Assembly (NCBI GenBank): GCA_016938675.1
Contig: JAFGUF010000032.1
Span: forward strand, 1-64,000
Source of the DNA: Clostridia bacterium
GTDB taxonomy: Bacteria > Bacillota > Clostridia > Christensenellales > UMGS416
Direction: 5' to 3'
Length of the DNA: 64,000 bases
Numbering within the stretch: the stretch's first letter is position 1; each line of letters opens with the position of its first letter. Positions 58,972-64,000 of the stretch are shown here, piece after piece. The translations under genes and the position numbers were made by a program. Under the pieces are notes generated by a model that had not been told where the DNA came from, did no database searches, and saw only the letters and a program-made list of their open reading frames with translations.

Positions 58972-59424
58972 ATGATATTTGCGGGAACAAAAGAGTATAG
59001 CGTTGACGAAAAGGGCCGTGTTGTGCTGCCTCCGAAGTACAGGGATGACCTCGCCGGAGACATTATGATATTTAAAGATATCGTGTATAACTGCATCAGA
59101 GTGTACCCTTATTCAGAATATGAAAAATACATTGCGGAACTTGATAATGAAATATTATCTGACAGAAACGCAGAAATATTGTTAGACAGGGCGATCAGCA
59201 GAGCGGAAGCAGTTCAGCTTGATAAACAGGGCAGAATAATGATACCCCAGAAAATGAGAGATTCTGTAGGAATAGACAAGGAAGTCCTAGTAATTGGAAA
59301 AAGAACTCGCTTTGAAATATGGACACAGGCAGCATATGACGCAGAATTCAATGACGATAAAGAGGCTGTACGTGCATATGAAGACAGAATAAATACAAAC
59401 AGAGAGATCAAGCTAAGAGGTTAA
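58972..59424 (+). CDS. mraZ: Transcriptional regulator MraZ
   Basis: 150 residues (usually about 142) containing two SpoVT/AbrB-like half-domains: EYSVDEKGRVVLPPKYRDDL near the N-terminus and VQLDKQGRIMIPQKMRDSVG near residue 80. It binds repeated TGGG boxes in front of the dcw operon and represses it. It begins the mraZ-rsmH-ftsL-pbp-murE cluster, and rsmH follows after 2 bp. GGAGCAGCGAT precedes the ATG. Confidence 0.95.
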   Translation: MIFAGTKEYSVDEKGRVVLPPKYRDDLAGDIMIFKDIVYNCIRVYPYSEYEKYIAELDNEILSDRNAEILLDRAISRAEAVQLDKQGRIMIPQKMRDSVGIDKEVLVIGKRTRFEIWTQAAYDAEFNDDKEAVRAYEDRINTNREIKLRG

Positions 59425-59426
59425 AG

Positions 59427-60368
59427 ATGAGCGAAAACACCAGACATGTGCCCATAATGCCGAAAGAAGTGCTGGAAAGTATTATTACAGACCGTAACGG
59501 CGTATATGTGGATGCTACACTGGGCTTTGGCGGACACTCCGAACTGATACTTAATGAACTGTCAGCAAAGGGAAAGCTGATAGGAATAGACAGGGACAAA
59601 GAGGCAATTGAAGCCTCAGAACATAGACTTGAAAAGTACGGCGACCGTTTTCGTGCGATTCACGGAAACTATAAGGACATTGAGGGCTATTTAAGGGACG
59701 AGGGTATTAGAATGGTAGATGGAATTTTGGCCGACCTTGGCATTTCCAGCTACCAGATCGATACCCCCGATAGAGGGTTTTCATACAATAAAAATGCCCC
59801 AATTGACATGAGGATGAACCAACAGGACAAGCTGAGCGCATACGAAGTAGTCAACAACTATTCAGTGGAAGAACTCCAAAGGATAATAAGAATATACGGA
59901 GAAGAAAAATTCGCAAGACAGATTGCGCAGCAGATACAAAGACAACGCGAAAAGAAAGAAATTGAAACTACTTATGAGCTGGTGGAGATAATAAAAAGTG
60001 CCATACCTGCACCGGCAAGAAGAAAAGGAGGGAATCCCGCAAAAAGAACTTTTCAGGCTATCAGGATACATGTTAACGATGAACTTGAGGGATTAAGTGA
60101 GACGATAGAAGGAATGATACGATTATTAAAAAGCGGTGGGAGGCTTTGCGTAATCACATTCCACTCTCTTGAGGACAGGATAGTGAAACAGGTGATGAGG
60201 GAACTGGAAGACCCCTGCACATGCCCGAAGGATATACCTTATTGTGTGTGCGGAAAGATAAGCCTTGGGAGGGCTTATCCTAGAGGGGGAATTGTTCCGA
60301 CAAATGAAGAGATGGAAAACAATTCAAGGTCCAAAAGTGCCAGACTGAGGGTTTTTATTAAGAATTAA
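59427..60368 (+). CDS. rsmH: 16S rRNA (cytosine-1402 N4)-methyltransferase
   Basis: 313 residues, S-adenosylmethionine-dependent. Motifs YVDATLGFGGHSELIL (SAM-binding), DGILADLGISSYQID, RGFSYNKNAPIDMRMNQ, RRKGGNPAKRTFQAIRIHVNDEL and ITFHSLEDRIVK are all present and in order. It methylates C1402 of 16S rRNA and is a standard dcw member. Normal length. Confidence 0.97.
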   Translation: MSENTRHVPIMPKEVLESIITDRNGVYVDATLGFGGHSELILNELSAKGKLIGIDRDKEAIEASEHRLEKYGDRFRAIHGNYKDIEGYLRDEGIRMVDGILADLGISSYQIDTPDRGFSYNKNAPIDMRMNQQDKLSAYEVVNNYSVEELQRIIRIYGEEKFARQIAQQIQRQREKKEIETTYELVEIIKSAIPAPARRKGGNPAKRTFQAIRIHVNDELEGLSETIEGMIRLLKSGGRLCVITFHSLEDRIVKQVMRELEDPCTCPKDIPYCVCGKISLGRAYPRGGIVPTNEEMENNSRSKSARLRVFIKN

Positions 60369-60395
60369 GTAGTAATTAATATTATGGGAGTAAAT

Positions 60396-60875
60396 ATGAT
60401 TATGAATAATGCAGCAAGAAGATTAGATGAAAGAGAATACACACAGCAGTACACATATCCTCAGAGGAAGACAAATCTGCGTGTATTGGAAAATAATCAG
60501 GAAAACAGAAATTTTAATGATAGCAGGACATACACAACTGTACACTATCATTCAAACAGCAATGCTTTTCTGAGCCAATTGATAACAACAGTTATTATAC
60601 TGTTCCTTTTCGTATCATGCATAGGATTTTTGGCTATTCAGGCCCAGATAACTCAGGTTGAAAGAGATATAAGCAGACTTAACAGTGAAATATACGAACT
60701 AAGCACTGAAAATAATATGATGCAAAATATCATAACAAGTGCTACAAATATCGAAACAATCAGAGAAAATGCTGAGAAGCTGGGTATGGGAAAACCTGAT
60801 GCTGAAGATGTGATATATATATCCGAATCCGAGCTTGGCGAGTACACAATGTCATCCGGAAGTCTCGGCAACTAG
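60396..60875 (+). CDS. ftsL: FtsL-like septum protein
   Basis: 159 residues from the ATG at 60396, chosen because GGGAG lies five bases upstream; an ATG at 60384 has no ribosome site. A cytoplasmic head of about 55 residues, one membrane helix (about 62-82; LITTVIILFLFVSCIGFLA), then a heptad-rich coiled coil (ISRLNSEIYELSTENNMM) and a short tail. Architecture and dcw position fit FtsL/DivIC-type divisome proteins; sequence conservation in this family is low. Confidence 0.8.
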   Translation: MIMNNAARRLDEREYTQQYTYPQRKTNLRVLENNQENRNFNDSRTYTTVHYHSNSNAFLSQLITTVIILFLFVSCIGFLAIQAQITQVERDISRLNSEIYELSTENNMMQNIITSATNIETIRENAEKLGMGKPDAEDVIYISESELGEYTMSSGSLGN

Positions 60876-60889
60876 AATAAAAGAGGTGC

Positions 60890-63142
60890 ATGCAAGTGTC
60901 GGTTAGAAGAGCGCACGAGGAGACCTCAAAAAGCGATGCCTTGGTTCGTAAAAGAATTGAGGTTCTCTTTGTTATATTCGCATTGCTCATTATCGCATTG
61001 ATTGCACGTGCAGGATATTGGCAGATATATAAGGCGGACTGGCTGAAATCAAAAGCCCAGGATCAATGGACGAGGGAAATCAGGATATTAGCTGACAGGG
61101 GTGACATATTAGACAGACATGGCAACCCACTTGCGATATCAACAAGTTGTTATACAGTAGTTTTGCAGCCTGGCGTCATAAAAGAGCAGGCTGAAATATT
61201 AAATAAAGACAATACTGACCAGTATATAGATGCTCTGTGTGAGGATCTGGCGGCAGTATTAGGATTATCACCTGATGATGTTAAGGCATATGCCACAAAA
61301 CAGCAGAATCAGGTGATTTTGATGCGCTATATTTCGGATAAGACAGCGGATGCTATCGAAGGAATGCAGTATTCATATACTGTGGAAAAGAGCGGCGTAA
61401 CAGAGACGAAAACAATTTCTTATAACGGAATACTCATAAATTCGGATATGAAAAGAGAATATCCGATGGGTTCATTTCTCACTCAGGTTCTTGGCTTTAT
61501 GGCCGTGGACGGAAACGGCCTTGAGGGCATAGAGGGGAGATTTGATAAATACCTAGCAGGCAAAAATGGCAAATTAACAGTTGAAACAGACAGGGAAGGC
61601 GTAAAAATTGGAGGCTCTCTTGAGGAAAGAGAAGAGCCGGTAAACGGGGATAATCTCCAGCTGACCATTGATGTTACGCTGCAGTCATTTGCGGAAAACG
61701 CTGTTGAGGCGTGCATGAATGAGTGGGACCCGGAAAGCGCGTCAATGATAGTAATGGACCCTGAGACCGGTGCAGTTCTCGCAATGGTTACAAAGCCTGA
61801 CTATGACAATAATAATCCGCCCAGAAGCGACTATGAAATGCTGCGCAGCCTGACAGCAAATAAGAATGTATCCGGGCTTTACTCACCGGGAAGTGCATTC
61901 GAAATAATTACGGCAGCAGCGGCTATAGACACGGATTCTATAAATACAAATACATTCTTCAATTGTGAAGGTGAAAAAACAATTGACGGACAGAAGCTGA
62001 ACTGTTCAACTGATGAAGCGCACGGAAGCATCAGCCTGAATCAAGCCTTTCTAAATAGCTGCTCAGTAGCATTTATGGAGATGGCAGAGGAAATGGGCGT
62101 TGACACATTCTATCGGTATATTGAAGGTTTCGGATTTGGCTCAAAAAGCGGTATTGAACTGTATAACGAATTAGCCGGGGAATTAACTCCCGAAAAATAT
62201 GTACGCGATGTTGAACTTGCAAGGATAGGTTTTGGTGATTCCATTATGATTACGCCGCTTCAATATGCAGCAGCATTAAGCACTATTGCTAACGGCGGAG
62301 AAAGGATGAAGCCATATATCGCACAAAAAGTTATTTCAAATGAAGGCAAAGTGCTGAAAGAATACAGCCCCGAAAGTGAAGGAACAATCATAAGCGACTA
62401 TACATCTGACACTATTCTGGAGTATCTATTCAACATTGTTGATAACGGGGCAGGCAGGTACTGCCAAGTGCCGGGATATGAAATAGGTGGGATTTCAGGC
62501 AATACAGCAAAATATGATGATGAAGGGTTAATAATTCACGATGCATATACGGCTTCCTTTGCGGCAGTAGCGCCAATAGGCGACCCGAAGCTGGTTGTTG
62601 TGCTTTTAGTAGATGAGCCAAAGGCTGGATCAAATTACGGATCAAAGGTGGCTGCGCCATATATAGGTGATTTCCTTGAGGAAGCGCTGCCATACCTAAA
62701 TATCATGCCGGATAGCGCGACAAATGAAAACGGAACAAAAAAAGAAGTACCCAATGTTGTAAACATGACCTTGGAAGATGCTGTAAATAAAATTAAACAA
62801 CAAGGTTTTGGTTGCATTATTGAAGGCTTTGATGGTAAAATAGTAACGCAAATTCCGGGAGCAGGAACAATGCTGGAAGCTGGAGACAATGTAGTTATAC
62901 AGCTTGCGCAAGTTTCTGATGAGGGCGAAAGCTACCTCGTTGAAGTCCCGGATTTATTTGGGTTAAAGCCTACCGAGGCACTGAAGCTGCTTACTGAGAA
63001 TAACCTGACTATGAGAATAGTGAGCAGCGGCAATGTAGTGTTGGAGCAATATCCGGATAAAGGCACAGAAGTTTTACGAGGCACTCAGATAGCTGTTGAA
63101 TTTGATTATTACGAAGATGATGACGAAGAAACAGAAGACTAG
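60890..63142 (+). CDS. Class B penicillin-binding protein with degenerate active site and two PASTA domains
   Basis: 750 residues in the FtsI/SpoVD arrangement: cytoplasmic tail, membrane helix (about 24-43), dimerisation domain (about 65-240), transpeptidase-type domain (about 255-600) and two PASTA repeats (about 618-672 and 684-738), ending in an acidic tail. All three catalytic motifs are altered: SxxK is S335-A-F-E338, SxN is S390-C-S392, and KTG is I535-S-G537. The surrounding fold is well conserved, so this looks like an inactive structural paralogue rather than a decaying gene. AGAGG is three bases from the ATG and nine from a GTG at 60896, which could be the real start. Confidence 0.88.
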   Translation: MQVSVRRAHEETSKSDALVRKRIEVLFVIFALLIIALIARAGYWQIYKADWLKSKAQDQWTREIRILADRGDILDRHGNPLAISTSCYTVVLQPGVIKEQAEILNKDNTDQYIDALCEDLAAVLGLSPDDVKAYATKQQNQVILMRYISDKTADAIEGMQYSYTVEKSGVTETKTISYNGILINSDMKREYPMGSFLTQVLGFMAVDGNGLEGIEGRFDKYLAGKNGKLTVETDREGVKIGGSLEEREEPVNGDNLQLTIDVTLQSFAENAVEACMNEWDPESASMIVMDPETGAVLAMVTKPDYDNNNPPRSDYEMLRSLTANKNVSGLYSPGSAFEIITAAAAIDTDSINTNTFFNCEGEKTIDGQKLNCSTDEAHGSISLNQAFLNSCSVAFMEMAEEMGVDTFYRYIEGFGFGSKSGIELYNELAGELTPEKYVRDVELARIGFGDSIMITPLQYAAALSTIANGGERMKPYIAQKVISNEGKVLKEYSPESEGTIISDYTSDTILEYLFNIVDNGAGRYCQVPGYEIGGISGNTAKYDDEGLIIHDAYTASFAAVAPIGDPKLVVVLLVDEPKAGSNYGSKVAAPYIGDFLEEALPYLNIMPDSATNENGTKKEVPNVVNMTLEDAVNKIKQQGFGCIIEGFDGKIVTQIPGAGTMLEAGDNVVIQLAQVSDEGESYLVEVPDLFGLKPTEALKLLTENNLTMRIVSSGNVVLEQYPDKGTEVLRGTQIAVEFDYYEDDDEETED

Positions 63143-63180: not shown

Positions 63181-64000
63181 ATGTTACTAAGCAGACTGGC
63201 TGAGCGCATAGAATGCGAAAAGATTCATTACAGCGATACAGAGATCACCGGAATTGAGTTCGATTCCAGAAAAGTGCAGAAGGGCAATATATATATCTGC
63301 ATTAACGGATTCAATGTTGACGGACATATATACGCGAAGCCTGCCGTTGAAAACGGCGCAGCGGCAATAATTGCAGAGAAAGTACTCGATGATGTTGATG
63401 CTCCGCAGCTGATAGTTGAAAACAGCCGCAGAGCTTTTGCAATCTGTGCCGCAGAGTGGTATTCAAACCCAGCTGACAGCCTGAAAGTAATAGGAATAAC
63501 AGGAACAAACGGAAAAACCACAACATCCCACATGCTGAAAACGCTGCTGGAAGCTAATGGTATTAAAACGGCAGCCATAGGTACAATAGGTACATATATC
63601 GGCGATGAGATATACTCGCAGAAGCTAACTACGCCAGACCCTATGGAGCTGCAGAAGATATTTGCCTTAGCGAGGGATAACGAATGCAAAGTTGCAGTAA
63701 TGGAAGTATCCGCTCATGCGCTTGAGCTTAACAAAGTAGACGGGATTTCTTTCTATGCTTCTGCCTTCACAAATCTATCACAGGATCACCTTGATGATTT
63801 TGAGATAATGGAGAACTACGAAAACGCGAAAAAGAAACTATTTACGGATATTTCGCATAGCGCGGTAATAAACATTGATGATAACGCTGCAGAAAGAATG
63901 ATGGCTGACTATTCGGGTCAACTGGTGACATATAGCACGAAAGATGCTTCTGCTGATTTTTTCGCAAAGAATATCATACTCTCTGAAGAGGGATTTAGGT
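63181..64000 (+). CDS. murE: UDP-N-acetylmuramyl-tripeptide synthetase, N-terminal part
   Basis: The gene runs off the right edge; 273 codons are present. Motifs are FDSRKVQKGNIYICING, the Mur ligase P-loop VIGITGTNGKTTTSH, TTPDPMELQ and MEVSAHALELNKVDG. It adds the third residue (mDAP or lysine) to UDP-MurNAc-L-Ala-D-Glu; the specificity motif lies beyond the window. lysA at 34.4 kb implies that the cell makes meso-DAP. GGAGGTACTTCA precedes the ATG. Confidence 0.96.
   Translation, partial: MLLSRLAERIECEKIHYSDTEITGIEFDSRKVQKGNIYICINGFNVDGHIYAKPAVENGAAAIIAEKVLDDVDAPQLIVENSRRAFAICAAEWYSNPADSLKVIGITGTNGKTTTSHMLKTLLEANGIKTAAIGTIGTYIGDEIYSQKLTTPDPMELQKIFALARDNECKVAVMEVSAHALELNKVDGISFYASAFTNLSQDHLDDFEIMENYENAKKKLFTDISHSAVINIDDNAAERMMADYSGQLVTYSTKDASADFFAKNIILSEEGFR

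Follow-up and report, generated by a model that had tools for sequence, protein, structure and literature searches.

In the systems that have been studied, SEDS proteins are activated through ECL4 by the pedestal of their partner, a class B penicillin-binding protein (bPBP) (PMC8078798). Catalysis by the C. difficile bPBP SpoVD is needed for the cortex and is largely dispensable for septation. In B. subtilis, a catalytically dead PBP2B is functional when PBP3, which is related to PBP2A, is present (PMC5656894). The ligands of the SpoVD Zn site have also been described, and redox sensing has been proposed for the Zn-PBPs of anaerobes (PMC9334274). Among Firmicutes, the peptidoglycan synthases of the dcw cluster track sporulation, and the genus Christensenella is described as non-spore-forming. 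In the open-access literature, we found no report of a naturally degenerate dcw PBP or of the PBPs of Christensenella.

Here, we analyze a 64,000-nucleotide stretch of DNA (the window; GenBank assembly GCA_016938675.1, contig JAFGUF010000032.1) from a bacterium of the order Christensenellales. The window ends within a dcw cluster that has the following features:

58972 to 59424, plus strand: mraZ
59427 to 60368, plus strand: rsmH (mraW)
60384 to 60875, plus strand: ftsL/DivIC-like gene, from its position and a sub-threshold DivIC match
60890 to 63142, plus strand: SpoVD-type class B PBP, catalytically degenerate (pseudo-transpeptidase), 750 amino acids, from the ORF, Pfam, alignment to SpoVD, and AlphaFold2
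61085 to 61639, plus strand: pedestal (PBP_dimer) region, residues 66 to 250, the conserved part in degenerate lineages
61892 to 61903 (AGT GCA TTC GAA), plus strand: SxxK position, S335-A-F-E338, Lys lost (K338E), from the SpoVD alignment
61964 to 62062, plus strand: predicted Zn site, C359 (61964-61966), C372 (62003-62005), H378 (62021-62023), and C391 (62060-62062), matching the SpoVD Cys/His tetrad
62057 to 62065, plus strand: SxN position, S390-C391-S392, Asn lost (N392S), from the SpoVD alignment
62492 to 62500, plus strand: KTG position, I535-S536-G537, Lys lost (K535I), from the SpoVD alignment
62732 to 63142, plus strand: two PASTA domains, about residues 615 to 750, from Pfam and AlphaFold2
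63181 to 64000, plus strand: murE, continuing past the window end

The gene order mraZ-rsmH-ftsL-PBP-murE is followed by mraY, murD, ftsW, a gene in the ftsQ position, ftsA, and ftsZ; beyond the window, ftsW was checked by Pfam and the other genes were assigned from sequence and order. The PBP reading frame has no internal stop and no frameshift. Pfam recognizes a transpeptidase domain, PBP_dimer, and two PASTA stretches, and in the AlphaFold2 model, residues 3 to 47 form an N-terminal helix and the transpeptidase domain is well folded, at a mean pLDDT of 86. A preliminary description of this DNA had reported a full-length frame with two PASTA domains, membrane helix, and dimerization domain intact, and these analyses agree with it.

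SAFE, SCS, and ISG of the window protein align with STFK, SCN, and KTG of C. difficile SpoVD (7rcz), with no gaps around the motifs. The window protein thus lacks the SxxK/SxN/KTG set of a catalytic class B PBP, while it has a predicted transpeptidase fold with a PBP_dimer pedestal. The substitutions and their positions are exactly as first described. The accompanying statement that all three motifs are lost is right as regards the Asn and the two lysines, but Ser335, the nucleophile, remains, as does the Ser that opens SxN. A sequencing slip is ruled out, because three separate motifs are affected and the neighboring genes are intact; motif loss also recurs in relatives.

Both the nearest solved structure and the best sequence match of the window PBP are C. 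difficile SpoVD (7rcz). The protein scores 538.5 bits against TIGR02214 (SpoVD), below the equivalog cut-off of 688 bits. It has the dcw site of SpoVD, between ftsL and murE, together with the PASTA domains, and the residues of the Zn Cys/His tetrad are present, from which the site itself is predicted. A sporulation role does not fit, as the window genome lacks SpoIVA and SpoIIIAE. The gene had been placed where FtsI/SpoVD normally sits; the dcw position is correct, and the protein is of the SpoVD type, not a vegetative FtsI.

Relatives were found with an alignment-based scan of genome contigs (a single-protein scan gave no matches), and dcw PBPs were read across the order. We find degenerate dcw PBPs in 19 genomes: 3 in the family of the window genome, 3 in family f11, 1 in f21, and 12 in f31, the last including six species of Christensenella, a cultured human gut genus. 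At least seven changes of motif state are needed on a MurE tree, which was built from a gene not involved in the change; its rows are enriched for SpoIVA-negative genomes, and an independent-pairs sign test on it is underpowered. Full-length frames are found for 18 of the 19 degenerate copies, the mildest case being G027, where SxxK alone is affected. The dcw PBP of G186 (G186:C9:9555-11806) is degenerate and split over two frames, either a pseudogene or an assembly error. It is most improbable that these proteins are still enzymes, with Ser335 served by a non-standard base or acting on a different substrate. The window protein keeps Ser335 and Ser390 in a fold that is predicted to be intact, but each catalytic lysine is absent in 17 of the 18 full-length degenerate proteins, and Ser335 is absent in more than half of them.

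Our results link the fate of this division gene to sporulation loss. With SpoIVA and SpoIIIAE as markers, in a sample of public genomes of which many are incomplete, SpoIVA is absent in 66 of 396 genomes, and both markers are absent in all 19 degenerate genomes. Among the 316 SpoIVA-positive genomes with the gene, none has a degenerate copy by KTG pattern or by reading. The DNA pattern, which covers KTG alone (SxxK, SxN, and KTG were all read for a subset of genomes), occurs in all except 7 of the 316; on reading, five of these have KTG, and two end before KTG with SxxK and SxN kept. Degeneracy is thus associated with SpoIVA absence (Fisher test, P about 1e-19, kinship ignored). SpoIVA alone over-calls sporulation loss, as most of the tested SpoIVA-negative genomes with intact motifs have SpoIIIAE (present in ten such genomes). 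Motifs are intact in three genomes without either marker (G011, G208, and G061); thus, sporulation loss permits motif loss but does not force it. Furthermore, f4 genomes without SpoIVA (G010, G063, G083, G178, and G381 among them) gave no dcw-type PBP match, and the gene may have been lost outright there. Since these genomes seem to lack it, the dcw PBP is apparently dispensable somewhere.

Degenerate proteins are under purifying selection in the lineages covered by dN/dS estimates, Christensenella and genus g139 of f11, where low ratios accompany absent catalytic residues. The three closest Christensenella pairs have dN/dS of 0.058 to 0.066, at high dS (1.2 to 1.9), and the g139 pair has 0.139 (dS 0.95), values within the range of neighboring dcw genes (0.03 to 0.16). 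The genus of the window genome is otherwise absent from the genome sets searched, and the window protein itself lies outside these estimates. Constraint has also shifted within the protein. Among intact proteins, divergence is faster in the pedestal than in the transpeptidase (TP) domain (median pedestal/TP distance ratio 1.37, minimum 0.74, 2497 pairs), whereas degenerate pairs show the reverse, with ratios outside the intact range (0.30 to 0.69 in Christensenella and 0.17 in f11). The shift is weaker for the window protein, which has a ratio of 0.99 against its sister G002, compared with 1.30 to 1.73 for intact relatives; both of its parts evolve faster than in relatives (pedestal 1.30-fold, TP 1.67-fold). 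When near-invariant residues of intact proteins are counted as lost if most degenerate proteins lack them, the pedestal has 19 kept and none lost, and the TP domain has 42 kept and 17 lost.

These patterns bear on the possibility that the gene became useless after sporulation was lost and is on its way out. The faster evolution of the TP domain in degenerate lineages, the frame-split G186 copy, and the SpoIVA-negative f4 genomes without such a gene are consistent with relaxed decay, which we nevertheless regard as quite unlikely: 18 of 19 frames are full-length, dN/dS stays at 0.06 to 0.14, the pedestal is under more constraint than the TP domain, and the protein is kept across six Christensenella species. 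In addition, C359, C372, H378, and C391 are retained in all 18 full-length degenerate proteins (72 of 72 ligands), which argues strongly against plain decay and confirms the alignment. The fourth ligand is the middle residue of SxN; the flanking Ser and Asn are often lost, and the Cys is kept.

The absolute conservation of the Zn site despite lost catalysis could also point to a sensor that would control division in response to redox state, zinc, or lipid II, with detection either by the PASTA domains or by the pseudo-transpeptidase domain and its Zn site. PASTA domains are present, and the redox sensing proposed for Zn-PBPs of anaerobes (PMC9334274) would fit; however, PASTA conservation is not unusual, and the predicted zinc may be purely structural. 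We consider a sensor unlikely; compared with sensing of lipid II, a role as scaffold or activator of a SEDS partner is the better fit. The preliminary description proposed selection for a non-enzymatic role, and purifying selection in relatives, the shift of constraint to the pedestal, and the kept Zn ligands support this; the suggestions made there for the type of role, a scaffold or sensor, are supported in part.

With catalysis lost from the dcw PBP, cross-links must come from elsewhere. PF00905 matches in the window genome are the dcw PBP, C3 (a class B PBP of MecA_N type), C42 (a short PBP linked to a SEDS gene), C21, C1, and C4; C4 is a 970-amino acid frame, and motifs were read for C1, C3, C21, and C42. 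A second class B PBP with intact motifs is indeed present, both as the MecA_N-type protein (STFK/SDN/KTG) and as C21 (SIFK/SCN/KTG), a PBP2 of the elongation type whose gene lies next to a SEDS gene. The class A PBP C1 is likewise intact (STIK/SIN/KTG). C42 (G000:C42, L002:1267-2634, minus strand), a second class B PBP by an FtsW/RodA-type gene, is degenerate (SLFY/SCS/GTEG); the short PBPs of degenerate genomes G027, G037, and G059 have intact motifs. A MecA_N PBP was found in 18 of the 19 degenerate genomes, one as a contig-edge fragment recognized by sequence; the exception, G260, is 72% complete. Such PBPs occur in 5 of 23 SpoIVA-negative genomes with motifs intact as far as read, a comparison confounded by kinship. 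In one genus with an intact dcw PBP, the MecA_N-type PBPs (L053 and L055, from G046 and G019) seem to lack KTG in the alignment. The catalytic Asp motif of FtsW is intact in the six degenerate clusters examined (G000, G006, G017, G027, G037, and G059).

We think it probable that catalysis used only for sporulation was lost, and that SpoVD was kept as a partner and activator of FtsW while other PBPs cross-link. On this reading, the gene is the spoVD of the order; sporulating relatives have intact transpeptidase motifs. Once sporulation was lost, cortex synthesis would no longer select for catalysis, and catalysis was lost repeatedly. The retained job would most likely be to bind and switch on the adjacent, intact FtsW through the membrane helix and pedestal, with the pseudo-transpeptidase domain, putatively stabilized by zinc, as a structural part; for the window PBP, gene order and analogy with studied pairs suggest this link. 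The most likely source of cross-links would be the MecA_N-type PBP. More broadly, and with somewhat less assurance, we favor the view that sporulation loss repeatedly makes SpoVD a dedicated, zinc-containing, non-catalytic FtsW activator, a natural split of SEDS activation from transpeptidation in the septal machinery of a common human gut genus. Work on SEDS-bPBP pairs usually relies on engineered dead mutants; in this order, the two functions have come apart by evolution at least seven times. Thus, the surviving residues show what the non-catalytic job would need: the pedestal and the Zn site, not the active site. Our results also suggest that in these bacteria, Christensenella included, beta-lactams do not target the dcw PBP.

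The window protein resembles C. difficile SpoVD (7rcz; TIGR02214) in domain order, dcw position, PASTA domains, Zn tetrad residues, and best fold and sequence match. It differs in lacking the catalytic Lys, Asn, and Lys, in a genome without the two sporulation markers tested, and in scoring below the TIGR02214 cut-off. With FtsI/PBP3 of the FtsWI pair, it shares the class B fold, the pedestal, and a nearby SEDS partner gene; unlike it, FtsI is an active vegetative transpeptidase. The B. subtilis strain with dead PBP2B S309A and PBP3 (PMC5656894) likewise places a non-catalytic division PBP beside an active MecA_N-type PBP, although S309A is a laboratory point mutant, whereas the Christensenellales loss is natural and recurrent. 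In C. difficile with dead SpoVD S311A (PMC12713402), catalysis is again largely dispensable for septation, and SEDS activation has been proposed; that laboratory mutant was made in a spore former, whereas in the degenerate lineages described here the sporulation genes are gone.
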